The translations under genes were made by a program, and so were the position numbers. A stretch of 64,000 nt of DNA from Bacteroidota bacterium (GTDB lineage: Bacteria > Bacteroidota > Bacteroidia > 2-12-FULL-35-15). The notes beneath the pieces are model-generated. The model was given only the letters and a program-made list of their open reading frames with translations, was not told where the DNA came from and searched no databases. Positions 2,864-55,546 of this stretch are shown here, one piece after another. Location of the stretch: NCBI GenBank assembly GCA_025963715.1, contig JAOQAG010000004.1, forward strand, positions 1 through 64,000, given 5' to 3'. Every line of letters starts with the position of its first letter. Within the stretch, counting starts at the first letter, position 1.

Positions 2864-5800
2864 ATGAAAAAAATAATTACTTATTTCAGCGTCATTTTTA
2901 CAATGGCTTGTATCCCGGCTTTCGGCCAATATCAGATCAATGGAAATGCCAGCGATCTTGGCGGCGGCTGTTACGAATTAACGCCAAACATAGGCGCCCA
3001 GGCCGGTTCTGTCTGGAACACCAACGTGATCAGCTTGTCGCAACCCTTTGATTTTACTTTTAATGTTTTTTTAGGCTGTGATGATGCCGGGGCAGATGGG
3101 ATCTGTTTCGGGTTACAACCTTTGGGAACCACCATCGGTTCATCCGGTAACGGAATGGGAATGGGCGGCGTAAGTCCCTCACTGGGTATTTTCATCGATA
3201 CCTACCAAAATATAAGTCCGGATAACGACCCCGCTTACGATCACATTTCCATGAATGCCAATGGAGATGTAAACCATACCACGGCCAACAACCTTGCAGG
3301 CCCGGTGCAGGCAAGCGATGTTTCTGCCGATATTGAAGATTGCTCCTACCACACCATGCGTGTGCAGTGGGATCCTGTAACGCAAACCTACCAGGTATGG
3401 ATCGATGGCGTATTGCGATTAAGCTACACCGGCGACATCATTAACACTATTTTTGGTGGAAACCCAAATGTATACTGGGGTTTCACCGGCTCTACCGGCG
3501 GACTAACCAACGAGCAAAGCTTCTGTATTTTAATGGCCGCTAATTTTGCAGCGCCACCGGTATGTGCAGGCACAGTTACCACCTTTACTGATCAATCCAA
3601 CAGCGGTTCCACCGTTACCAACTGGTCATGGGATTTTGGCGACGGCACGCCTGTATTTTCAGGAAGTACAGCCGCTACCTTTCAAAATCCGACACATACA
3701 TACGCAGCAGCAGGAACCTACAATGCACTCGAAACCATCAGCAGCTCGGCAGGCAGCAGCACCATTTCACATACTGTAATCGTATTGCCACCACCTTCGG
3801 TTACAGCAAGCGGCGGAACTTCACTTTGTTCCAGCCAAACGATAAATCTTTCGGGAACTGTAAGCGGGCCATCCAATACGCCTTTGAGCTTTACAAGCAC
3901 GGGAAGTAATTCCAACGTAGCCATTGCGGATAACGGCGTGCCTTTCGGCTGGACCGGAACCGGCGGTACATTTGCCACTTCCAACATTCCCGTTACCGGA
4001 TTAAATGCAGGCTGGTCGTTAACCAGCATCACATTTAACATTACCCATACCTTCGACGGCGATTTGATCGGTTACCTGTTCGATCCCTGCGGCAACAGCA
4101 TTCAACTCATCAGCAGCACCGGTGGTGCAGGCGATAATTTTACAAATACTACATTTACTCCCGGTGCTACTACCGGCATTGGAACTGCAACAGCACCGTT
4201 CAACGGTACGTTTGTTCCAATGGGTGGAGCAGCAGCATGGAATGCATTCATTACGGCAAGCGCCAGCTGCGCTTCTGCAAACGGAACCTGGTCGTTTCAC
4301 GTAGGTGATAAAGCCGGTGCCGATGTGGGAACAATCGTTAACTGGAGCATTATCTTCAGCAATCCAACCAGCCCTACTTACGTATGGGCGCCTACTGCGG
4401 GCATGACCAATTCCACTACTCTTAATCCATCTGTTACTCCAACAGCCACCACCACGTATACCTTAACAGCATCCAATTCATTGGGATGCAGCAGCACCGC
4501 AACCACTACGATCACTATCACTCCGGGGCCTTCATTGGCAATTACCAACCCGGCGGCGGTATGCGCACCGGGCTTTGTTGACCTTACCCTGCCTGCTGTA
4601 ACTGCGGGAAGCACAGGCGGCGGAACGTTATCGTATTATACAGACAATACCGCTACCACACCGCTTACCTCACCAAATGCAGTAACTACAAGCGGAACGT
4701 ATTACATTACAACCAGTGTAGGCGGTGGTTGTTCCGATACAGCAGCAGTAACAGTAACCGTGAGCCCTGCACCAACATTAACCATTACCAACCCGGCACC
4801 GGTTTGTGCTCCAAACAGCATCGACCTTACTGCAGCAGCAGTAACGGCCGGAAGCACCGGCAGCGGAACATTATCCTATTATTCGGATGCGGCAGGAACC
4901 ACGCCATTGCCAACACCAAACGCAATGACCGCAAGCGGTACCTATTACATTGAAAGCGCCATTGGCAGCTGTAACGATATCGAACCGGTTACCATTACTA
5001 TTAATCCGGCACCTTCATTAGTAATCACCAATCCACCGGCTATCTGCGGAAGCGGCAGCATTGATTTAACAGCACCGGCTGTAACCAGCGGCAGTACAGG
5101 TAGCGGAACATTAACGTATTATACTGACAGTACAGCAACTACACCACTCTCTTCGCCAAATGCAGTTACTACGGGCGGTACATATTATATTGAAAGTACC
5201 GTTGGTTCCTGTACGGATATTAAGCCGGTTACAGTAGTGATCAGCCCTGCTCCTACACTCGCCATTACAAATCCGGCAGCAGTTTGCGCGCCGGGCAGTA
5301 TTGATCTGACAGCACCTGCAGTAACAGCAGGCAGCACAGGCGGCGGAACGCTGGCATATTATACGGATGCTGCTGCAACCACACCATTGGCATCACCATC
5401 GGCTGTGACCAGCAGCGGAACCTATTATATACAAAGCACCATCGGTTCCTGCAGCGATCTTGCAGCCGTTACCGTAACTGTAAATCCGGCGCCTTCACTG
5501 GTGGTTACAAACCCGGCAGCAGTGTGCGGACCGGCAAGTATTGATTTAACGTTACCTGCTGTAACAGCAGGCAGTACAGGCAGCGGAACATTAACGTATT
5601 ATACCGATGCGGGAGCAACCACAACATTATCGTCGCCAGCGGCAGTAACTGCAAGCGGTACGTATTATATTGAAAGCACGCTTGGTTCCTGCAGCGATAT
5701 TGAAGCGGTAACGGTAACCATTAACCCTACACCGTCACTGGTAATAACAAATCCGGCAGCAGTATGCGGCCCTGCAAGCATTGATTTAACAGCTGCAGCG

Positions 5801-41666: not shown

Positions 41667-42596
41667 CTATAAATAGCGTGGCGACATCATTCTCGATTTA
41701 AAAATATTAAAGTCGTACCCGATCATGATCTCGTGACTTCCTCTTCCTGCTACTCCAATCTTGTTCAGTCCCATATCGTACGAATATCCGAGCTTTAATT
41801 TGTCGGTGATCTGGAATTCAACCAATGCCACCACTCCATAGCCGGTTCTAAAGGATGCGCCCAGCCACAAACGGTCTTTCAGCAAAAAGCAGGCATTGAG
41901 ATCCACCTCCGTGGGTGCGCCTTTTGCAGCTTTTATCAATAGCGAAGGAGCAAAAGTAAGCTTGTCGGAAAGCTGCCAGGATTTTCCCAATGTAAAAAAC
42001 AAGTGCGGCGAGAGTTGTGCATCATCTCCGTTAAGGTTGGAAACACTTGTTAAACGGCCGTTGTACAAATGCGTGGCACTCAGCCCGGCATACAAGGAAT
42101 TGGTATAATAATAAATTCCGGCATCGGCCGTGGGTACTATCCGGGAAGTAATGTTACCGGTATTGTATATGTCGTTCTGGTCTTTGTAAGTAATATCCGA
42201 CCAGTTGTAGGTATAATTATAAATGCCTGCTCTTAATCCAAAAGATAATTTTCCGTTGCCGACAGGAATGCGGTAAGCGTAAGAACCCAATGCACCAATG
42301 CTTTTCACCGGTCCGATCTGGTCGGCGATCACGGTAAAACCCAATCCTACTTTTTTCTTTTTTAATGGTGCATGAATGCTGAATGTTTCTGTTTTTGGTG
42401 CGCCTTCAATCCCTGTCCATTGATTACGCAGCAATACCGTAGTGCTCAATGCTTCCTTGCTTCCGGCATACGCAGGGTTAAGCGCCAGTTGATTAAACAT
42501 GTACTGGCTGTACTGCGGATCCTGTTGTGCCTGTACTTTCGACAGAAAAGCAAGAACAGCGATAAGCACAATTATTATTTTTTTGAATGCTCCCAT
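41667..42596 (-). CDS. PorP/SprF-family outer-membrane protein
   Basis: The signal peptide ends VQAQ and the mature start QDPQYSQYMFNQLALNPAYA is the PorP/SprF hallmark. The remainder alternates beta strands of an outer-membrane barrel (LSFGLRAGIYNYTYNW, LKLGYSYDMGLNKIG). Family members attach or translocate T9SS type B substrates. The gene lies between a CHU_C cargo gene and an OmpA-type gene, the usual arrangement of a dedicated partner set. The collagen-like protein further upstream may use the same machinery. Confidence 0.94.
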   Translation of the reverse strand: MGAFKKIIIVLIAVLAFLSKVQAQQDPQYSQYMFNQLALNPAYAGSKEALSTTVLLRNQWTGIEGAPKTETFSIHAPLKKKKVGLGFTVIADQIGPVKSIGALGSYAYRIPVGNGKLSFGLRAGIYNYTYNWSDITYKDQNDIYNTGNITSRIVPTADAGIYYYTNSLYAGLSATHLYNGRLTSVSNLNGDDAQLSPHLFFTLGKSWQLSDKLTFAPSLLIKAAKGAPTEVDLNACFLLKDRLWLGASFRTGYGVVALVEFQITDKLKLGYSYDMGLNKIGVAGRGSHEIMIGYDFNIFKSRMMSPRYL

Positions 42597-42734: not shown

Positions 42735-43502
42735 TTAATGTGTCACCTCTACCCATCCTTTGTATGTTTTTCCTCCGGCTTCCACGAGGTAAAAATAAGT
42801 GGCATCGGTTAAGTCCTTTCCATTTGTGTTTTTTCCGGCAAATACCACGGTATTGTTATCATAATTCTCGCCTTTCCAAACCTGGTCGCCCCAGCGGTTG
42901 TATATCAATACCCTGCTCGTTTCAAAATTGGTAATCCCGTCGATCACCCATGTATCGTTATGTCCGTCGCCATTAGGCGTTACGCCTTTGTAAAAGATCA
43001 GCTGCTGGCCGCAATCGATCTGATCTTCGCTGATCACAACCGAATCTGTAATGGTAAAATTTCCGTCCGTTACAACGTATGGATATGTTCCCGGCGCCAG
43101 GTTGGTAAACAAGGTGCTGGTTCCAAATCCTTCATTATTAAAATTAATGGTTACCGGGCCGGTGCTGGTAAACGGCTGAAACATAACCGAACCGTTCTTT
43201 GCATCAATACAGGTGGAATTCACGCTGTTCACACTTTCATTCAATGTGCTGTTGGCATCGTTCGGCTGCTGGAAACCCTGCGTTAAAAATTTGGTGTTGA
43301 ACGGCCCTACAGTTGTAACAATGCATTCTCCAACCGTGTAATCAATAGAGATCCCGGAAGGCAATACCTTTGTTCCGCCCGATGTACCAAGTACATTCTG
43401 CATCGGTGGATTGTTCTGCACCTGCGCCTGTACACTCATACCAATAAGTACAAGAAGCAGCAGGAATAGAACGCTGATATTATTGCTTGTCTTATTCATC
43501 AT
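42735..43502 (-). CDS. Small secreted protein with T9SS type B (CHU_C) sorting domain
   Basis: A signal peptide (to SVQAQ) precedes a beta-rich region with a SprB-like repeat (about 90-160, CIDAKNGSVMFQPFTSTGPV, YPYVVTDGNFTITDSVVI) and the CHU_C domain (about 170-255, YKGVTPNGDGHNDTWVIDGI, VLIYNRWGDQVWKGENYDN). The protein is exported by the T9SS. The ATG at 43502 overlaps the stop of the collagen-like gene by one base (TAATG), so the two are translated in sequence, and PorP follows. It may anchor or cap the collagen-like fibre. Confidence 0.88.
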   Translation of the reverse strand: MMNKTSNNISVLFLLLLVLIGMSVQAQVQNNPPMQNVLGTSGGTKVLPSGISIDYTVGECIVTTVGPFNTKFLTQGFQQPNDANSTLNESVNSVNSTCIDAKNGSVMFQPFTSTGPVTINFNNEGFGTSTLFTNLAPGTYPYVVTDGNFTITDSVVISEDQIDCGQQLIFYKGVTPNGDGHNDTWVIDGITNFETSRVLIYNRWGDQVWKGENYDNNTVVFAGKNTNGKDLTDATYFYLVEAGGKTYKGWVEVTH

Positions 43503-46500
43503 TAGTTTGCTTTCGTAACGGTATAAGTGATCACTACTTTGCACATGATCAGGTTGCTGTTTGCCTGCATACTTCCCCAGCGTAAATAATAAGTATAAAC
43601 CGAATTATTTACAACCGGAGATGAAATGGTGGTGGTACTTAATGACTGGATATTTGTGTTTGTGCCTGTAGTTGCCGGTGCAGAAGCCATTATAAGCGAA
43701 TTACCGGCAGCAGTACCGACAGCATAATCGTTTCTCCACAATTGCAGCGGCTGCGTATTATACGTTCCATCTTTATCAATTACAAATGCTTCCAGTTTTG
43801 TTACAGTTGCACCATCAGGCAAATTTACCGGTGCCTGCAGGTAGGCAACTACAGTCGCACTTCCATCCGGCACATACAATCCGTAAGGCCCTATAGTCGT
43901 TGTATAAGTGGCACCTTCCTGTGTAAATGCCGGTGGTGAAATGCTGTAATACGATGTTTTTGCACTACTGTACATGTAATCGTTTGCAGCAGGGATCATC
44001 ACGTTCCCTATTACTTCCAGCTTTTGTCCCGGTGCCGGATTTCCAATCCCTACATTTCCACCCATGAACTGGAAATTTCCTGTACCTTCAAAATCTGTAT
44101 AAAAATAATTTCCTGCGGATCCACCCAATACGTCACCTATCTTCACACCGTTTCCATCTATTCCAAAACCGGCATTCCCCCCGTTATCATACGCCACTAA
44201 TGAATAAGCCGGGTCTGTACCGCCAAAGATCCCGGTATGCCCGTTTCCATCGATGGTGATGCGCGGCGTATTGTTGGTCCAAAAATCCATTGTGTTGGTG
44301 CTGTTGTTATACCGGATCACACCTTTACCCGGCGTACCTGCAACGCCAAACATCAGTGAAGACGCAAGAGAAGAGCTTGTTAAAAGGCTGATCGCAGGTG
44401 CTGTTGTTGTATTGTTAATTTGCAGCATCTGCCCCGGCGTTGCTGTTCCAATCCCTACGTTTCCACCATTGAAGATGGCGCTGTAGTTCACATCCGCACC
44501 GGATACATTCACTAATAATCCCTGGTTGACCTGGCCTGTTGTAGGTGACCATGATCCGGTAGATTCGATAGAAAGTCCTGTTTTTGTTGATCCTGAGCCG
44601 CCTGCTTTTGTAACAAGATTTTGAACCAGCATGCCGATGTTATCAATAGACCTGTCGCCTGAGTTCACCACCGTAAGCGCTCCACCAGAAATGGCACCTG
44701 TCATAGGGTTCTGGATCGTGGCAACATAACCAGAAGTAGTCGCATTATCCGATATTTTTGTTTGTCCGTTTACCTGGAATTTCACTGTTGGCACAATACC
44801 TACCCCCACATTTGTTCCGTCGCTGTATAAATTACTTGTTGCTGTCCATGTTCCCGAGTTATTGTACAATGTTTGCCCGGTGGTTCCTATGGGAAGCAAC
44901 CCGCTGATCGGGTTCAGCGTTACATTCGTTACTCTTCCGAATCCATCCGTAGTGATCGATGGCACTTGCGTGGAAGAGCCGTATGTTCCTGGCGTTCCTA
45001 TAGATCCAAGGCCAATTGTGCCGGATGTAGTGATCGTACCGCCGATTAAGCCCGTACCTGCAGTAATGCTGGTTACGGTACCGCCGCCTACGCTAAGCGT
45101 TGACCATACAGCACCATCGAAATAAGAAAATTTATTCAGTGTGGCATCGTACACGATCAAACCGGCTATTGGCGAAGCAATGGCCAGTTTTTGAGCACTG
45201 GTCATGCGCGGGATCAAAATACCTTTTGTGGTGGATGTAATATCCAGCTGGGCTGCTGCATTTGGAGTAATGGTACCCAATCCAAGGTTTCCGGCAGTAA
45301 AATCACCATAGATCAACGGCGGATTGGTGGTAGAGTTTGCAATGTAAAGCTTGTTGGAACCTGTTTCATTGTAACCTGCATTTAATCCTAAAAACACATT
45401 CCCGCTTCCGCTCGTATTTGTAAAGCCAGCATGATATCCTAAAGCAGTATTTGTATTACCTGATAAATTATTATACAAGGCTTCAAATCCAACAGCAGTA
45501 TTACTTGCACCGTTTGTATTCAATGCCATTGTATTGTATCCGTATGCAACGTTCGAGCTTCCGTTACTGGATGATAAACTTCCATATCCAACAGCTGTAT
45601 TATTGCTTCCTGTTGTGTTCCCGAACATTGAAAAATATCCCGCTGCCGTATTATTTTGTCCTAATGTGTTAGCCGAAAGCGAATTATTTCCAAAGGCCGC
45701 ATTGTCCTGTCCCTGTGAATTTGCTGTAAGTGCGCTTGTACCAATAGCGGTATTGGATCCTCCTGTTGTATTGGTTTTTAATGCACCCTGCCCCACCGCA
45801 GTATTTAACGTACCCGATGTATTTGCCTGTAATGCCTGGTAACCGATTGCGGTGATCCCTGCTGCAGTATTTACATTTCCGGCCTGGTAACCATACACCG
45901 TTTGTCCGCCCGCATCTATCCTTCCGGCCTTTTGGTTATTCACTTTCATATTAAAAGGAACGTTATCAGTTGTACCGATAAAATTAGTCCCGTCAACCGT
46001 TCCCGAATTTCCTACTGTCAGCCAGGATGCGTTTGTGGATGTGATCGGTCCACCCGATCCCGCCGTTGCAGCAAGTGTAAGTGTTCCTGCAGGGTTAAAT
46101 GTTAAGGAAGTCAGCGTCCAGGTTGGGCCTGTTGAACCCGTATTACCCGTTAAGCCAGTGTTTCCTGTATTTCCGGTATTTCCGGTATTTCCGGTAGCAC
46201 CCACAATTCCTGTAGGCCCTGTGTTACCGGTTGCACCGATGGTTCCTGTAGATCCGGTGTTTCCCGTATTTCCGCTCGGGCCAACCAATGAAACACCTGC
46301 TCCCGGCCATACTGTTGTTTTAGGTCCGTATAAAATGTTAGTGCTTGTATTAATATAAAAATCACCAACCGATCCAATTCCCACCGTAGGATTTACCGTT
46401 CCGTTCAGCACGCTTGTTCCTGTTGAACCTGTAGCGCCCGTTATTCCTGTATTTCCGGTTGATCCAACAATACCTGTACCTCCGGTTGCACCGGTAGTAC

Positions 46501-47716
46501 CCGTTACACCTATAGTTCCCGTAGCTCCGGTATTACCTGTTGCACCAACTACACCTGTTGAACCTGTAACTCCTGTATTTCCAGTATTACCAATAGTTCC
46601 GGTTGATCCCGTTATTCCGGTATTACCCGTTGCACCAACTATACCGGTTGAACCTGTAACTCCTGTATTTCCAGTATTACCGATAGTTCCGGTTGATCCC
46701 GTTATTCCGGTATTACCTGTTGCACCAACGATGCCGGTTGAACCTGTGGCACCGGTAAGGCCTGTATTACCAGTAGCACCAACTGTTCCCGTAGATCCTG
46801 TTGCGCCGGGATTTCCGGTTGCACCTGTATTACCTGCTAATCCTGTACTGCCTGTTGCTCCATCCGCTCCGCTATTTCCGGTGGCGCCTGTTGCACCAAC
46901 ACCGGTTGGGCCTACCAGGCCGGTTGATCCGGTTACACCTGTAGGGCCATATAATACACCGGTAATAATGCTTGCACCACTACCATAAGTAATTGTTAAT
47001 GTTCCGTCTCCATTATCTGTAATTCCTGTAATGGCTGCTCCTGTTACACCTGTTACACCTGTTGCTCCGGTTGATCCATCGGCACCGGTTGTACCCGTTG
47101 ATCCTACCGGGCCTGCTATTGTGGATGCAGCACCGGTTACACCCGTTGCGCCGGTTATTCCATCAGCACCGGTTACACCCGTAGAACCTACGGGACCTGC
47201 TACTGTTGATGCTGCGCCTGTGGCACCTGTAACTCCCACTGCACCTGTAGCGCCGGTTGGGCCTGCCACTGTTGATGCAGCGCCCGTTGCACCGGTTGCG
47301 CCCGTTAAACCACCGCCAGCATTTGCTGCATACAAGGCATAAGGAACGCTTTGCATCTGTACACGCCCCATGCTGATAAAGCCGCTTCCGCTGCCATCAT
47401 CTACTTCTACTTCTAAATATCTTGCTCCACCAGCCCAGTTGATACTGTTAAAGCTGGTTGTATTTGCACTTCCGATCACGCTTGTGAATAAACCGTAAAC
47501 GTTGGTGGTAACACCTGTATGGGTTTCCTGGAATAAGTTTGTACCGCCGGTAACTGCATCCCAAATGGTAAAACGCACATCAATACTGGTACTGATCACC
47601 GGACCGCCGGAACTGGTACGCGCTACTGCCTGGTAATTAATCCCTGAAGGTGGTGCCTGGCTAAAACCTAAAGCTGATAACAGGATCAGTAAAAACAATA
47701 GTAAAGTTTTTTTCAT
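43502..47716 (-). CDS. Collagen-like (Gly-X-Thr) surface fibre protein
   Basis: The 1404-residue protein has a signal peptide (to LGFSQ), an N-terminal beta domain (about 22-130), then a long collagen-like region (about 135-580) of [19 protein letters not shown]-type triplets interrupted by a small non-collagen segment. YadA-head-like repeats (about 640-790: [37 protein letters not shown]) and a tail-fibre-like C-terminal region ([20 protein letters not shown]-type) follow. Triple-helical assembly as a trimeric fibre is likely by analogy. There is no T9SS sorting domain on this protein; the next gene carries one. The triplets are low-complexity at DNA level. Confidence 0.85.
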
Positions 47717-47932: not shown

Positions 47933-49720
47933 TTACTGAATCTTTACACCAATTACAAGAATGTCATCCACCTGATCAAGCGGGCCGCGCCATTCCTCAA
48001 TTGTTTGGTTCAGGAATTCCTTTTGTTTGTCGATCGGATGCTTGTGAACATCCAGTAAAAGATCACGGAAATGATTGGCCATAAACTTTTTACCATTCGG
48101 GCCGCCAAACTGATCGGCATAACCGTCGGAGAAGATATAGATCACATCTCCTTGTTGTAATTTAAAGGTATGATTGGTAAATTTCTTTTTCTCTTCGCCT
48201 AAAAACAAACCGATCGGGAATTTATCCGCTTTTGTTTGGATCAGCTGTCCATCACGAATAACATAAAGCGGATTAAACGCACCCGCATATTGCAATTCCA
48301 TAGCGTTGTAATCAATGGTGCAAAACGAAAGGTCCATCCCGTCTTTGGCCTGTGATTCTTCATGGCCGTGGTGTAATGTTTCACTCACACCTTCATTCAA
48401 TGCATCAAGGATCAGGGAAGGTGTTGTAAAATTATTATTGTTAACGGAATGTTTTAAAATATTGTATCCTACGATGCTCATAAAAGCTCCGGGTACACCG
48501 TGACCGGTACAATCCACAGCTGCAAACATGGTTTTACCATCTTTTTCATCGATCCAGTAAAAATCGCCGCTGACAATATCCTTTGGTTTATATAATACAA
48601 ATGAATTGGGTAATACACGTTTTACCAGGCTGTCCGGCGGCAGGATCGCTTCCTGGATCCGTTTCGCATATTTGATACTATCGGTCACATGCTTGTACAG
48701 CACTTCCAGCTCTTCGTTCTTGGTTTCGATCTCTTCTTTCTGACGCACCACTTCTTCTGTACGCTCAATTACTTTTGCTTCGAGCACACGCTCATTCTCA
48801 CGCAAATCTTCCCGCATTTTTAATAAGGCTGCGCCCAATGTATCATCTTTACTCAAAGGACGGTAATGCGAATCAAAGTTACCGGAACCTACCTGTTTCG
48901 CAAACTGTGTGGTGCGTGCCATTCCATCCACCAGGTCGTTCAACGCGATGGACATTTCACCGATCTCATCATTTCTGTCTTTGATGCGCTCGGTTGGCAA
49001 TACGCCTCTTCCCATGGATAACAATATTTTTTTCAATTGCTGGATCGGGCGAACAATGGTTCTTACCGTATATACTGCAATTAAAAGTCCGCCCACAACA
49101 AGCAAGATCCCCAGCCACACAACAATTTTTTGCAGGAACGTAAAGGAATCCAGCATTTTATCGGAATTATCGGTTGCATTCGAATTTTGTTTATCAATAA
49201 GCTTGCTTAAATTTTCGTTGATCACCTGGAATTGCGGCTCCAGATCCTCAAATGGCAGCTGCGCTACAAATTTCACATTGGAATCGTTGTACGTATCAAA
49301 GGAATTTAACGTGGCCATTACATCCTCTTTGTAGCTTTTGAACATTTTCTCTACCAGTGCAAGGATCGCATCAGCGCTTTTCTGCTCATCTTTGTTCCAG
49401 TTTACCGAATATTTTTTAATGTTGGTTTTTACTTCCGGATATTCATAATCCAGCAAATGGCGCAACGCTTTTTTGTGCGCGGCATCATCACCTGTTTGAA
49501 CGTAAAACCATTTGGTAATAAGTAATTTGGAACGGTTGAGCAAGTTGTCCAGCTCTTTCAGCGTAGCCACCGAAGGATTGTAGATCTCGGTAACCTGGTC
49601 GGTTTTTTTGCGACTGTCGTTAAGAGTAACGTTGGTAAGTAAAAACGCTATAATTGTCAAAAAAATGATTATGCCAAAGCCCAATCCTATTTTTCTACCA
49701 ATTGTAAATCTTAATTTCAT
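47933..49720 (-). CDS. Membrane-bound SpoIIE-type serine phosphatase with HAMP domain
   Basis: The 595-residue protein has helix 1 (about 10-30), a periplasmic helical sensor-like region (about 31-190, 4-helix-bundle type), helix 2 (about 195-215), HAMP (about 216-270), a coiled coil (about 290-345, KVIERTEEVVRQKEEIETKN), then a PP2C/SpoIIE phosphatase (about 360-595: DIVSGDFYWIDEKDGKTMFA, AAVDCTGHGVPGAFMSIVGY, IFSDGYADQFGGPNGKKF) with its metal-binding aspartates. It probably dephosphorylates an anti-sigma-factor antagonist or similar partner, which is not encoded here. It ends a YfiR-TPR-SpoIIE operon. Confidence 0.9.
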   Translation of the reverse strand: MKLRFTIGRKIGLGFGIIIFLTIIAFLLTNVTLNDSRKKTDQVTEIYNPSVATLKELDNLLNRSKLLITKWFYVQTGDDAAHKKALRHLLDYEYPEVKTNIKKYSVNWNKDEQKSADAILALVEKMFKSYKEDVMATLNSFDTYNDSNVKFVAQLPFEDLEPQFQVINENLSKLIDKQNSNATDNSDKMLDSFTFLQKIVVWLGILLVVGGLLIAVYTVRTIVRPIQQLKKILLSMGRGVLPTERIKDRNDEIGEMSIALNDLVDGMARTTQFAKQVGSGNFDSHYRPLSKDDTLGAALLKMREDLRENERVLEAKVIERTEEVVRQKEEIETKNEELEVLYKHVTDSIKYAKRIQEAILPPDSLVKRVLPNSFVLYKPKDIVSGDFYWIDEKDGKTMFAAVDCTGHGVPGAFMSIVGYNILKHSVNNNNFTTPSLILDALNEGVSETLHHGHEESQAKDGMDLSFCTIDYNAMELQYAGAFNPLYVIRDGQLIQTKADKFPIGLFLGEEKKKFTNHTFKLQQGDVIYIFSDGYADQFGGPNGKKFMANHFRDLLLDVHKHPIDKQKEFLNQTIEEWRGPLDQVDDILVIGVKIQ

Positions 49721-49754: not shown

Positions 49755-50663
49755 CTATTTTTGTTTTTCTATTTCTTCCAGTTTTTGCTTGTACATGTTT
49801 GATTTATCAAACTCGTTCAAGCTAAAATAAATACCTGACAGACCCAACAGCGTTTCTCTGCGTTTTGGATCCAGCTCGTATGCTTTTTCCATGAAAGGAA
49901 GTGATTCTTTAAATAAGTTAATGGAATTGTCCTGGATGTCGTTCAGCGCCACAATGTCCAGATCGTAATCGGATTGATTGATGAGGTTTACCGCCTGGTT
50001 GTAATACAAAATCCCCATGTTGTAATTGGCAGCAATGTTATTCGGATCTATCGCCAGAATTTTGTTGTACGCATCTTTCGCCAGCTTCAAAAATTCAATT
50101 TTTCCTTTGCGGTCGCTTTCAAATACTTTGGTGTAAAGCGATGCAATGGCCAGTGTAAAATCAATGTCTTTTTGCTGAATGTTTGCAGGTGTAGGATCTA
50201 CCAGCAAATAATATTCTTTGAAAATATCAAAATTAGCGATCGCGATCTTATAATCGATGGAATCAAGGCTGGCTCCGGCATCATTGTACAGCGTGGTACA
50301 CAGGTACTTAATGTTTTTCACATTCTCCTGTACATTTTCCTGGGCGGTATCCAGCTCTATCGATTTTTTGAATGATTTCAGCGCCACGATCCGGGAAGTG
50401 GATTGTTTATTTCCTTTTTCGCTTTTGTTGTAAATGGATTTGTAGATAAAACCGCGAACATACCATGATTTGCCATCTCCGGCAGTTTCGGGATGTAAAA
50501 CAACAGCATCGATGTTCACTTTAGCGCTATCGAGATTTCCCTGCTGCAAGAACGTATACGCAGCGTTGAATTTACGCTGCTGCGCTTTGCCCACTATTGT
50601 TGCGAAAAGCAGCAATAACGTAAAACAAATGGTTCTTTTTAAGTTTAACATCTTAATTATCAT
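49755..50663 (-). CDS. TPR protein of the YfiR-SpoIIE operon
   Basis: This 302-residue protein has a signal peptide (ending VGKAQ) and TPR-like repeats (about 30-290: NAAYTFLQQGNLDSAKVNID, AFNKILAIDPNNIAANYNMG-type, MEKAYELDPKRRETLLGLSG). Starts at 50663 or 50651 are both possible; the shorter gives MLNLKRTICFTLLLL. It lies 34 bases upstream of the phosphatase and 17 bases downstream of the yfiR-like gene. It is a probable periplasmic scaffold linking the two. Confidence 0.85.
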   Translation of the reverse strand: MIIKMLNLKRTICFTLLLLFATIVGKAQQRKFNAAYTFLQQGNLDSAKVNIDAVVLHPETAGDGKSWYVRGFIYKSIYNKSEKGNKQSTSRIVALKSFKKSIELDTAQENVQENVKNIKYLCTTLYNDAGASLDSIDYKIAIANFDIFKEYYLLVDPTPANIQQKDIDFTLAIASLYTKVFESDRKGKIEFLKLAKDAYNKILAIDPNNIAANYNMGILYYNQAVNLINQSDYDLDIVALNDIQDNSINLFKESLPFMEKAYELDPKRRETLLGLSGIYFSLNEFDKSNMYKQKLEEIEKQK

Positions 50664-50680
50664 GTAAATATATAAAAAAA

Positions 50681-51214
50681 TTATTTAACCTGTACCGACA
50701 TATCCACCAGCGTGGTTGCGACCTTGAGTTTATACTTCTCTATATTTGCTTTGTTCAATTCGATCTTCTGTTTATTTTCTACAATTGAAAAGTTTATGCC
50801 CGATCCCAGCTTTGTTAATCCGGCTTTATCTGTAACAATGAGCGTGCTTTTACCGGTTACTTTTTTGATCACTTCGGGCAGTTCGTCCGAGCTGTTTGTT
50901 AAAATGTAAATAATGTGACATTGTGCTGCTTCCGCCGGATTACCAATGCTTTTGATCTCCAGTTTCTGAGCGCCTACGGTTTTGGAAGCCGCCATTTTAC
51001 TCAGCTCATTAAACAGGGGAATGTTGGTACCATATACGCCAATTACAAAGTTGCCGGATTTGTAGTTGTCCGGCCATTCAATGTATTTCGTAAAATTGTA
51101 GATGTAAATTGCCTTGATGCGGGCACCGGCCTCTTCCGATTGGTCCATCCGGATCGCTGCACTTTGCGTGAGCAACAAAATCGGGAGTACTAATATGAAA
51201 AGTAGTTTCTTCAT
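50681..51214 (-). CDS. YfiR-family periplasmic protein (DUF4154)
   Basis: A signal peptide is followed by a YfiR core (about 25-177): IKAIYIYNFTKYIEWPDNYK, FVIGVYGTNIPLF, GAQKLEIKSIGNPAEAAQCH, LIVTDKAGLTKLGSGINFSI are family hallmarks. In Pseudomonas YfiR is a periplasmic repressor of the diguanylate cyclase YfiN. Here the downstream effector appears to be a HAMP-containing SpoIIE phosphatase rather than a cyclase. It is the first gene of the operon, preceded by a TATATTTG box. Confidence 0.92.
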   Translation of the reverse strand: MKKLLFILVLPILLLTQSAAIRMDQSEEAGARIKAIYIYNFTKYIEWPDNYKSGNFVIGVYGTNIPLFNELSKMAASKTVGAQKLEIKSIGNPAEAAQCHIIYILTNSSDELPEVIKKVTGKSTLIVTDKAGLTKLGSGINFSIVENKQKIELNKANIEKYKLKVATTLVDMSVQVK

Positions 51215-51350: not shown

Positions 51351-51358
51351 TATTTTTG
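51351..51358 (+). promoter_or_regulatory. -7 box for the sigma-factor gene
   Basis: TATTTTTG at 51351-51358 matches TAnnTTTG and overlaps the GTG used by the track ORF. Transcription would start about 51363-51367, so the ATG at 51367 would be at or within a few bases of the 5' end, i.e. a leaderless or almost leaderless mRNA. Confidence 0.55.
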
Positions 51359-51366
51359 TGCTACGC

Positions 51367-51960
51367 ATGTACGCTACAGAACTCCATACACTTGATGATC
51401 TGCAATTGGTTGCCCGTTATAAACAAACCGGCGACAATAACTGCGTGGGTGTATTGTTCCAGCGTTACACCCACCTGGTGTTTGGTGTGTGCATGAAATA
51501 CCTGAAAGATGAAGATGACAGCAAAGATGCTTCCATGCAGCTGTTTGAAAAATTATTGACCGATCTGAAAAAGCACGAGATCCAGCAATTTAAAGCCTGG
51601 CTGCACATGGTTTGCAAAAATTTTTGCCTGATGCAGCTGCGCTCCGGTTCGGCTAAACTTAAACACAACAAGGCCATGCAGCAGGATTTGGGAGCGCTTA
51701 TGGAAACCGACCTGAACGCGCATCTTGTACATGAAAACACAAAAGAAATACAGCTCACACACATGGAAGAATGCATGAAAGGGCTGAATGAGGAACAGCG
51801 CCTGTGTGTGGAATTGTTTTACCTGCAGGAAAAAAGTTATAGTGAAATTACCGAAACAACCAGCTTTAGCATGAATAATGTAAAAAGCTATATACAAAAC
51901 GGCAAACGGAATTTAAAGATCTGCATCGAATCGCGCAGCAGTGTATTGCAACAAAAATGA
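51367..51960 (+). CDS. RNA polymerase sigma-70 family (ECF-type) factor
   Basis: The protein of 197 residues contains sigma region 2 (about 20-90: DDLQLVARYKQTGDNNCVGV, LFQRYTHLVFGVCMKYLKDE, ASMQLFEKLLTDLKKHEIQQ, FKAWLHMVCKNFCLMQLRS) and region 4 (about 135-190: CMKGLNEEQRLCVELFYLQE, YSEITETTSFSMNNVKSYIQ, GKRNLKIC). The GTG start of the track is rejected because it overlaps the -7 box. The stop overlaps the next start as ATGA, so it is coupled to a membrane anti-sigma factor-like gene. Confidence 0.9.
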   Translation: MYATELHTLDDLQLVARYKQTGDNNCVGVLFQRYTHLVFGVCMKYLKDEDDSKDASMQLFEKLLTDLKKHEIQQFKAWLHMVCKNFCLMQLRSGSAKLKHNKAMQQDLGALMETDLNAHLVHENTKEIQLTHMEECMKGLNEEQRLCVELFYLQEKSYSEITETTSFSMNNVKSYIQNGKRNLKICIESRSSVLQQK

Positions 51961-53312
51961 GTGAAAAATTAAAACATACATTATATACGCCTACGGATTG
52001 TATTTCGGAGCAAACGATGTTTGATTACATCGACCACGCTCTTTCTCCGAAACAACAGCACGTGGTGGAAAAGCATTTGCTGGAATGTGAGCTGTGCTCG
52101 GACGCAATGGATGGTTTAAGACTGGTAAAGAACCGCAACATTATTGGAACGATCAATCAACAGGTTGCCGAAAAAATGGCAATGCCGCCGGTTGTAAAAA
52201 AATCAGGAGGGTTCAATTATAAAATAGTCATGTCGGTCGCGGCCGGATTGTTATTGCTAATGGGCGGCCTTTTCTTTTTCAATCACTTAGCGCCGCCATC
52301 TGCGGAAGAAAAAGCAACGGTTGCTGATCTGAAAACAGATCAAAAAGCAAAAGAAATACAAAACGAAACAACACCGGGAACCGGTAAACCGGCAACTCCA
52401 TCCGGCACGGTAACAACAAAAAACAAAGCGGTTGACCGATCGGAAGCAAACGATCAATCTCCTGCGCCTGTATTAAAAGAAGAGGAAGCAAAACAGGAAA
52501 GACCGGCACAGGAAACGGCGCCGGATGAATTACGGAAAGCTGAAAACACAGAAAAAACAGAAACGACCGTTGCACTGGAAGGCGCAGCTGCAAATGCAAA
52601 ATTAACGGACAGTATTTCCGTTGCTGACAAAGGCACGGGAACTTACACCTACGAATGGAACACGCCAAAAACCGACAAGGATGATGGTAATTCAGCCGGA
52701 GCAGGGGCTCTGGCACCACAAAAAGAAGAAGATAAAAATCAGGCAGCTACTTATGCTGTGGTAACGGAACAATTGGCCGATGAAGCGAAAGATCAAAAAG
52801 CAGAAAAAATGAAAGCGAAAAAAGCGCCGGAAGAGAAAAAAGCAAATGCTGTTGCCGGTGATTACAAAGCTACGCCCTCTACTTCAGAAACTCCGGCTTA
52901 CGCTCCGCCGGATCTTGCACAAAATTACAATAAGGTGATCAAAGGAGATTCTATCAGTACAATCTCCGGCTTGAGTAACAATTCAATAACTGCTTTTGTT
53001 GACCAAACGCCGGAGTTTCCGGGAGGAAATGCTGCCTTGTTAAAATTTATCAGCAGCAATGCCAAATGGCCGGTGCAGGCTGCAGGAAAAGAAATAACAG
53101 CAACAAAAATTTACGTACAATTTACGATTGATAAATACGGAAATGTAAAAAATCCGAAGATCCTGAAAGGCATCAACGACGGGTATGACAAGGAAGCATT
53201 GCGCGTTGTAAGCCTGATGCCGAAATGGAAACCGGCAATATCCGGCGGCAAAACCACTGCGTATGTTTATTCGATGCAGATTTTGACCGATCAAAAATTA
53301 AATGCAAAGTAG
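51957..53312 (+). CDS. Zinc-finger anti-sigma-like protein fused to a TonB C-terminal domain
   Basis: The cytoplasmic N-terminus (about 1-85) carries a zf-HC2/ZAS motif, KHLLECELCSDAMDG (H-x3-C-x2-C about 39-46), as in anti-sigma factors. A transmembrane helix (about 88-109) and a long Lys/Glu/Ala-rich linker (110-330) follow. The C-terminal 100 residues are a TonB_C domain (VDQTPEFPGGNAALLKFISS, IYVQFTIDKYGNVKNPKILK, LMPKWKPAISGGKT). It is translationally coupled to the sigma factor. The fusion suggests that the sigma factor may respond to contact with outer-membrane TonB-dependent receptors; that link is inference. Anti-sigma activity is inferred from position and the zinc motif. Confidence 0.85.
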   Translation: MSEKLKHTLYTPTDCISEQTMFDYIDHALSPKQQHVVEKHLLECELCSDAMDGLRLVKNRNIIGTINQQVAEKMAMPPVVKKSGGFNYKIVMSVAAGLLLLMGGLFFFNHLAPPSAEEKATVADLKTDQKAKEIQNETTPGTGKPATPSGTVTTKNKAVDRSEANDQSPAPVLKEEEAKQERPAQETAPDELRKAENTEKTETTVALEGAAANAKLTDSISVADKGTGTYTYEWNTPKTDKDDGNSAGAGALAPQKEEDKNQAATYAVVTEQLADEAKDQKAEKMKAKKAPEEKKANAVAGDYKATPSTSETPAYAPPDLAQNYNKVIKGDSISTISGLSNNSITAFVDQTPEFPGGNAALLKFISSNAKWPVQAAGKEITATKIYVQFTIDKYGNVKNPKILKGINDGYDKEALRVVSLMPKWKPAISGGKTTAYVYSMQILTDQKLNAK

Positions 53313-53406: not shown

Positions 53407-53973
53407 ATGCAGCTCAAACGGCTTTTTTCTTTTTATTTGTTCCCGCTGGCATTCGCGTTGCCTTTATTTATAAGCTCCTGCCGACCGGCAAAAGAAATTT
53501 CAAAAACAGAACAACGCTCTTCTGAAAAAGAAAATAAACCGACTGTTTCTTCCACAAAATTAGAAAAAAAATACGCAGAACTGCTGAACGTAAATGAAGA
53601 CCGGATCAGCAACACGAAGCTGTATTCCTTTATCGACGATTGGTACGGCGTGCCTTATAAATACGGCGGACAAAATAAAAAAGGAATTGACTGTTCTAAT
53701 TTTGCGGCTACGCTTTACGCAACTATTTACAACAAACAGCTGAAAGGCTCCTCTGCTTCTATTTTTAACCAATGTAAAGTGATCTCCAGAAGCGATCTGA
53801 AAGAAGGCGATCTTTTATTTTTTAAAATTGAAAAGGAAGATATTTCGCACATCGCGGTGTATCTGCAAAACAACAAGTTTGTGCATGCCACCACAAAAAA
53901 AGGAGTGATGATCGATGATCTGGATGAAGCATATTATAAAAAATATTTTTACAAAGCAGGCAGAGTGAACTGA
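53407..53973 (+). CDS. NlpC/P60 (C40) cell-wall peptidase, lipoprotein
   Basis: A lipoprotein signal (LPLFISSC, Cys 25) precedes a helical linker and an NlpC/P60 domain: catalytic Cys 96 in GIDCSNFAATLYA, His 148 in DISHIAVYLQNN, and His 160 (FVHATTKKG). The family cleaves gamma-D-glutamyl-diamino-acid bonds in peptidoglycan. It is probably anchored to the outer membrane facing the wall. It stands 94 bases beyond the anti-sigma/TonB gene and has its own -7 box. Confidence 0.92.
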   Translation: MQLKRLFSFYLFPLAFALPLFISSCRPAKEISKTEQRSSEKENKPTVSSTKLEKKYAELLNVNEDRISNTKLYSFIDDWYGVPYKYGGQNKKGIDCSNFAATLYATIYNKQLKGSSASIFNQCKVISRSDLKEGDLLFFKIEKEDISHIAVYLQNNKFVHATTKKGVMIDDLDEAYYKKYFYKAGRVN

Positions 53974-54400: not shown

Positions 54401-55546
54401 ATGGCAAAAGAAAATTCATGCTCCCAGATCCGCATCATTACACGCATTACAGCCATTGCCTGTTTGATCAGTATGCTATTGTGCTACAAGCTGTGGCTGA
54501 ATGACCGTACCTTTCCGGTAGTCCCGCTGCTACACTTTTTACCGGCATTGCATCATCCCTTTGATTATATCCTGCCGGGAATTGCCGCTGTTTTATTGCT
54601 GTGCATCGCAATCGTACGTAATCCGCAACGGTTCATTATTCTTTTTCTTGTGAGCGCTGTTTTACTCATGCTGCTCGATCAGAACCGCTGGCAACCCTGG
54701 TTTTACCAATATGTGCTGATGTTTTTTATTATGGCATTTTTTAATTACCGTTGCGACGATACCAAACAACAGGCAGCCATTGTGTTCACGTTTAAATTAA
54801 TGATCGCCGCTATTTATTTCTGGAGCGGACTGCAAAAATTAAATCCTAATTTTTTATCCGATACATTTCCCTGGCTGATGCAACCCATCACCGATCATTT
54901 AGGGCCAAACAGCATTCTGCATTTCCGCTTTTTAGGATATTCCTTTCCGCTCATTGAAACAGCTACGGGTATTTGCCTGCTGATCCCGGCATTGCAAAAG
55001 CAAGCAGTGATCGCAGCCATCCTCATGCACGTTTTTGTCTTAGTGATTCTGAGTCCGCTGGGACACAATTACAATCCCGTGGTATGGCCATGGAATGTTG
55101 CCATGATCTTATTTGTGCTCCTGCTTTTTTATAACGATTCTACTTATACGTTTGCCGACATCCGCAGTACGCTGCATTACAATTCCTCCAAATTTGTGCT
55201 GGTATTATTTTTATGCATGCCGCTGTTTAATTTTTTCAACGCCTGGGATTCGTACCTCTCGCATAATTTGTATTCGGGAAATACCAGCGGCGGTGTTATT
55301 TTTATTACAGACGTAGTAAAGGAAAAGCTTCCTGCATATATTAAAACGTACGCGATTCCGGAAGAAGGCCAAAGCGAGATCAATATCAAATACTGGTGCA
55401 TGAAGGAGCTGGGCGTACCGGCTTATCCGGAAAAACGGAATTTTGAAGCGGTGAAGAATAGTCTTTTTGCTTATACAAATGATACTTCTCAGATCTATCT
55501 GTTATATACACCGAAATTAAAAGCAGGCGAAAAAGTGAAACAATAG
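54401..55546 (+). CDS. Polytopic membrane protein, HTTM/VKGC-like (tentative)
   Basis: A 381-residue protein has about eight transmembrane helices (TAIACLISMLLCYKLWL, YILPGIAAVLLLCIAIV, FIILFLVSAVLLMLL, YQYVLMFFIMAFFNY, LMIAAIYFWSGLQKLN, LIETATGICLLIPAL, AVIAAILMHVFVLVILS, NVAMILFVLLLFY) and a soluble C-terminal part. FYWSG-type helix and PWLMQPITDHLGPNSILHF recall HTTM/vitamin-K-dependent carboxylase-like proteins, but I cannot confirm a family. The substrate is unknown. It stands alone and is followed by a long repeat tract. Confidence 0.65.
   Translation: MAKENSCSQIRIITRITAIACLISMLLCYKLWLNDRTFPVVPLLHFLPALHHPFDYILPGIAAVLLLCIAIVRNPQRFIILFLVSAVLLMLLDQNRWQPWFYQYVLMFFIMAFFNYRCDDTKQQAAIVFTFKLMIAAIYFWSGLQKLNPNFLSDTFPWLMQPITDHLGPNSILHFRFLGYSFPLIETATGICLLIPALQKQAVIAAILMHVFVLVILSPLGHNYNPVVWPWNVAMILFVLLLFYNDSTYTFADIRSTLHYNSSKFVLVLFLCMPLFNFFNAWDSYLSHNLYSGNTSGGVIFITDVVKEKLPAYIKTYAIPEEGQSEINIKYWCMKELGVPAYPEKRNFEAVKNSLFAYTNDTSQIYLLYTPKLKAGEKVKQ

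Follow-up and report, generated by a model that had tools for sequence, protein, structure and literature searches.

A predicted membrane-bound zinc anti-sigma factor with a periplasmic TonB-type domain, encoded beside an ECF sigma gene in Bacteroidota

Does a membrane protein with an anti-sigma domain at one end and a TonB C-terminal domain at the other energise an outer-membrane receptor, or does it use the TonB fold as a sensor? The question is raised by a gene pair within a 64,000-nucleotide stretch of a Bacteroidota contig (hereafter the window). A first-pass annotation proposed that energised or structural contact between this single polypeptide and an outer-membrane receptor might directly control release of the sigma factor. 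Here we followed up this proposal using profile searches, structural models and a survey of related loci.

Gene layout and domain order

The following features were assigned at the locus.

51351-51358, + strand: TATTTTTG, a candidate promoter box of the Bacteroidota -7 type (TAnnTTTG), separated from the sigma ATG by 8 nt
51367-51960, + strand: ECF sigma factor, 197 aa (Pfam Sigma70_r2 and Sigma70_r4_2; ECF sigma structures matched)
51957-53312, + strand: anti-sigma/TonB_C fusion, 451 aa (Pfam zf-HC2 and TonB_C over their cut-offs; 26/36 genus genomes)
51999-52097, + strand: putative zinc ligands C15, H40, C44 and C47 (invariant in 12 diverse members)
52224-52280, + strand: one transmembrane helix (residues ~90-108, from hydropathy) containing a conserved AA
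52281-53009, + strand: charged, variable periplasmic linker, 243 aa, no cysteine
53013-53309, + strand: TonB C-terminal domain (Pfam; model pLDDT 88.5; best PDB match TonB CTD with FoxA)

The sigma gene runs from an ATG at 51367 to a stop ending at 51960, and both of its sigma domains scored above the Pfam cut-off. The GTG at 51358 in the open reading frame list lies upstream of this start; orthologues align from the ATG at 51367. The first-pass annotation had placed an ATGA overlap between the two genes, and both the overlap (51367-51960 with 51957-53312, same strand) and the coordinates proved correct; the majority of orthologous gene pairs likewise overlap by 1 or 4 nt. Across the genus the sigma factor is 55-83% identical, with the anti-sigma partner far more variable, chiefly in the linker. 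At all 25 of the 25 genus loci a TAnnTTTG box was found in the 45 nt preceding the sigma ATG, where 1.0 would be expected, in every case at a distance of 6-17 nt. Because this box resembles the primary Bacteroidota promoter, a housekeeping promoter is likely to provide a basal supply of sigma factor, and the position of the box implies that the sigma mRNA leader would be very short or absent.

Within the 451-aa protein, two Pfam matches exceeded the gathering score, zf-HC2 with E 1.2e-5 and TonB_C with E 2.8e-8. Together with hydropathy and composition (73% E/K/D/P/A/Q/S/T over the 243-aa linker), these matches agree with the order originally described: an HxxxCxxC motif, one helix, a long charged linker and TonB_C. 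The zinc motif is H40-x3-C44-x2-C47, and its three ligand residues are conserved to 90% or more across 74 members. An alignment of 12 members revealed Cys15 as an additional candidate ligand that had been missed, giving an invariant set of four (C15, H40, C44 and C47). Zinc anti-sigma factors usually hold their zinc with four ligands, a set to which these residues correspond. Searches using the N-terminal anti-sigma profile and model returned weak matches, the sequence matches including ChrR and the antisigma factor DdvA. The top seven Foldseek matches to the model were RsiW and ChrR, with low TM-scores and a best E of 0.53; the E-values of these fold matches are weak, while their kind (zinc anti-sigma factors) is specific.

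At the other end of the protein, NCBIfam TIGR01352 scored 25.9 bits, just under its 27.1 cut-off, so the TonB_C domain is divergent; its YP motif is degraded in several close orthologues. A model of this domain built from 36 family members (mean pLDDT 88.5) was compared with the PDB, and the best matches were TonB C-terminal domains, the first being a TonB/FoxA complex at a modest E of 1.4e-3. A sequence search with the C-terminal profile matched a Helicobacter TonB at 4e-8. Taken together, these matches indicate that the C-terminal fold, as judged from model and sequence, is that of TonB. The idea of an anti-sigma factor with a TonB head of its own stands in part, as a predicted membrane-bound zinc anti-sigma protein with a periplasmic TonB-type end and a linker whose length would in principle let it reach receptors in the outer membrane.

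Recurrence of the gene pair and its periplasmic ends

With the fusion protein as query against the genus and more distant relatives, 26 of the 36 genus genomes proved to carry the fusion, in part as partial copies, and it was also detected in other families of the class. That the pair recurs to this extent, with sigma factors 55-83% identical, indicates more than a chance arrangement. The N-terminal 111 aa used alone matched 114 of 395 class genomes at E <= 1e-5, and a homologous sigma gene lay directly upstream at 114 of the 115 loci read in detail (some being duplicates of one record). The periplasmic ends at these 115 loci were TPR at 64, TonB_C at 41 and other at 10; removal of near-identical rows and addition of genus loci gave 57 TPR, 50 TonB_C and 11 other. 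Across the surveyed loci TPR accounts for ~55% of the ends and TonB_C for ~40%, such that a fusion of this type beside a sigma gene, the frequency of which the first-pass annotation had left to a survey, is common. Named TonB_C carriers include Reichenbachiella versicolor and Pontibacter ummariensis.

The genome to which the window belongs encodes a second sigma/anti-sigma pair, a TPR-ended paralogue at locus L250 (1921-3605, - strand). The divergent gene at that locus (3700-4812, + strand) encodes a CarboxypepD_reg and Plug protein of 370 aa, a length insufficient for a barrel.

The pair in the window is flanked by conserved neighbours.

47933-49720, - strand: four-helix sensor-HAMP-SpoIIE phosphatase
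49755-50663, - strand: TPR protein
50681-51214, - strand: YfiR/HmsC-like periplasmic protein (DUF4154), divergent neighbour with synteny kept
53407-53973, + strand: NlpC/P60 protein, downstream
54401-55546, + strand: membrane protein (weak MauE/DUF3556 matches), downstream

The YfiR gene was found beside 13 of 28 TonB_C-type named loci versus 0 of 23 TPR-type loci, and all three genes of the YfiR-TPR-HAMP/SpoIIE block recur together in a second family (L065/L121). This association with TonB_C-type loci could reflect either function or shared ancestry. Further away, a 1404-aa protein with collagen-like triplet repeats is encoded at 43502-47716 (- strand) and lies near the locus in nine genus genomes, and a PorP/SprF type IX secretion protein is encoded at 41667-42596 (- strand). 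Three genus genomes have a gene with a Tle1-like phospholipase domain close to the locus (L062:4889-5932, - strand; L064; L066).

Parsimony on the sigma tree gave 6-7 changes of periplasmic head. A single TonB_C clade was not rejected (p-AU 0.50), and repeated head swapping, with independent origins of the TonB_C head, is for this reason not claimed. A TPR-ended relative within the genus (L071/L145) was considered as a swapped orthologue and set aside, being without the YfiR synteny and possibly a paralogue. The arrangement recurs across Bacteroidota and has the appearance of a sensor whose heads can be exchanged, not of a source of energy.

Energy transduction, sensing and the partner of the TonB_C domain

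Markers of TonB energy transducers were sought in the anti-sigma proteins. Neither His nor SxxxH was found in the membrane helix of any of the 65 TonB_C-type members, and YGAY was found in none of the 143 anti-sigma proteins, the latter motif being present in two ExbD-adjacent TonBs of the same genome. SxxxH is also missing from two ExbD-adjacent TonBs of this genome, so this motif alone is a weak marker of ExbB binding. The two YGAY-bearing TonBs lie near ExbD genes on contigs C19 and C25, as does a third TonB, whose helix contains His. These are the only contigs of the genome with ExbD, the genes there adjoining other TonB genes, and no match was detected on the contig of the window. Moreover, the helix of the fusion resembles that of TPR-ended homologues, with A95 and A96 conserved to 90% or more in TonB_C- and TPR-ended members alike. 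The variable periplasmic end, the absence of a TonB-type helix signature, the absence of exbBD or receptor genes nearby and the presence of separate ExbD-linked TonBs all argue for a TonB_C domain that is sensing rather than energising.

No TonB-dependent receptor gene was found near the locus, none of the 30 Plug matches in the genome being on the window's contig (C44), and Pfam gave neither a FecR nor an STN match for the 451-aa protein. A possible link to receptors came from relatives. Anti-sigma proteins of a Cytophagales-type branch (including Pontibacter) carry PF13715 and a hydrophobic strand immediately before TonB_C, for example LSEVVVVGYG. In SusC transporters PF13715 is an N-terminal extension ahead of the TonB box, and deletion or mutation of VDEVVV produces a growth defect like that of a SusD deletion (PMC7782687). 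The TonB-box pattern was present in the linker of 9 of 76 TonB_C-type proteins (0.15 expected by shuffling) and of 0 of 60 TPR-type proteins (0.10 expected). The nine are related to one another, most of them with the SusC-type PF13715, and thus do not represent nine independent events. These in-cis strands support a link between the TonB_C domain of this family and TonB-box recognition, and they suggest that within the Cytophagales-type branch the strand may act as a cis competitor. The window protein itself contains no TonB-box-like strand and no PF13715 domain, and receptor reading by this protein is therefore proposed by analogy with a distant branch. The loci concerned are L150, L152, L196, L218, L233, L235, L236, L241, L244, L245 and L248 (466-1791, - strand), most of them with both PF13715 and the strand; at L150 the strand is present but PF13715 is not, and L196 and L235 have strands that do not match the pattern as counted.

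From the domain order, the putative zinc ligands, the co-occurrence with a sigma gene, the alternative TPR heads and the TonB fold, we hold with moderate confidence that the protein is a zinc anti-sigma factor that silences its sigma factor and carries TonB_C as a periplasmic recognition head, not as an ExbBD motor. The cytoplasmic zinc domain would bind and silence the ECF sigma factor encoded next to it, the membrane helix would anchor the protein in the inner membrane, and the periplasmic tether would present TonB_C to an envelope partner, most likely the TonB box carried by a receptor in the outer membrane. Binding or loss of this partner would be signalled to the inner membrane and the sigma factor freed, probably by regulated proteolysis, a step assumed by analogy with FoxR, where it is the proposed release route (PMC11637429). 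A more specific proposal, for the class across the phylum and including the Cytophagales cis competitor, is that TonB_C and TonB compete for the TonB boxes of receptors, through which RNA polymerase would be informed of how abundant or how occupied the receptors are; this we put forward tentatively, as possible but less than probable. In the Cytophagales-type branch the receptor-like extension and TonB-box strand would keep the head occupied until displaced by a receptor.

Other explanations were weighed against the same evidence. TonB_C might bind something other than a receptor, such as peptidoglycan, itself or an envelope protein (e.g. the YfiR-like neighbour), and thereby sense the state of the envelope. 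The degraded YP motif in several orthologues, the replacement of TonB_C by TPR in homologues, and the YfiR-TPR-HAMP/SpoIIE synteny that favours TonB_C-type over TPR-type loci and is kept in a second family are all consistent with this; however, the in-cis strands point to TonB-box recognition and the synteny may be shared ancestry, and we judge such a ligand rather unlikely. An ExbBD-energised TonB with an anti-sigma head, in which sigma release is under the direct control of a mechanical pull on a receptor, would account for the complete TonB_C fold and a linker of periplasm length, but it is improbable given a helix without TonB-type signature, whose features are common to TPR-ended homologues that have no TonB domain, and a contig without ExbD. 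The least probable alternative, to which we give very little credence, is classical surface signalling of the FecR type, in which the anti-sigma factor is contacted by the STN signalling domain of a dedicated receptor. A sigma/anti-sigma pair at the inner membrane is what the classical system contains (PMC11637429), but here the protein has no FecR or STN domain and the contig no Plug match.

Returning to the recognition-head reading, these results divide the original proposal. Contact with an outer-membrane receptor has become more plausible through the TonB-box-like strands of relatives, whereas the energised part of that contact is not supported, in view of the helix markers, the lack of ExbD and Plug matches on the contig and the likeness to TPR-ended helices. 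The first-pass annotation had also allowed that the fusion might be common and act only as an energy transducer; it is indeed common, and no sign of an energy-transducer role was found.

Relation to known systems

On its sequence, the fusion is best filed as a variant of the membrane-bound zinc anti-sigma factors and as a predicted sigma binder. Like RsiW, ChrR and RsrA it has a cytoplasmic HxxxCxxC with an upstream Cys and a gene downstream of its own ECF sigma factor, and RsiW and ChrR were its top structural matches; it differs in the 243-aa periplasmic linker and TonB_C. FecR and FoxR are also inner-membrane anti-sigma factors thought to listen to outer-membrane receptors, whereas the window protein lacks a FecR/STN domain and a receptor gene nearby and holds the TonB-side domain within the anti-sigma protein. 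With TonB energy transducers it shares the membrane helix, long linker and TonB_C fold, but not the ExbBD-type helix signature or an exbBD neighbour, and its N-terminus is that of an anti-sigma factor. Of the systems found, the Dma anti-sigma factors of Bacteroides come nearest in function; their domains extend from the outer membrane to the cytosol (PMC13088901). Both are Bacteroidota proteins encoded beside a sigma gene, with one long polypeptide directed toward the outer membrane; the window protein, however, ends in a soluble TonB_C fold of ~100 aa and has no outer-membrane part. No description of a zinc anti-sigma/TonB_C fusion was found in the open-access literature searched, the coverage of which is incomplete, and the literature examined held nothing relevant on envelope-stress sigma links in Bacteroidota.

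If TonB_C reads receptor TonB boxes, the system would provide Bacteroidota with a route from receptor to transcription that does without a dedicated receptor signalling domain. The alternative heads (TonB_C, TPR and others) would offer a natural set for studying how anti-sigma factors gain new inputs.
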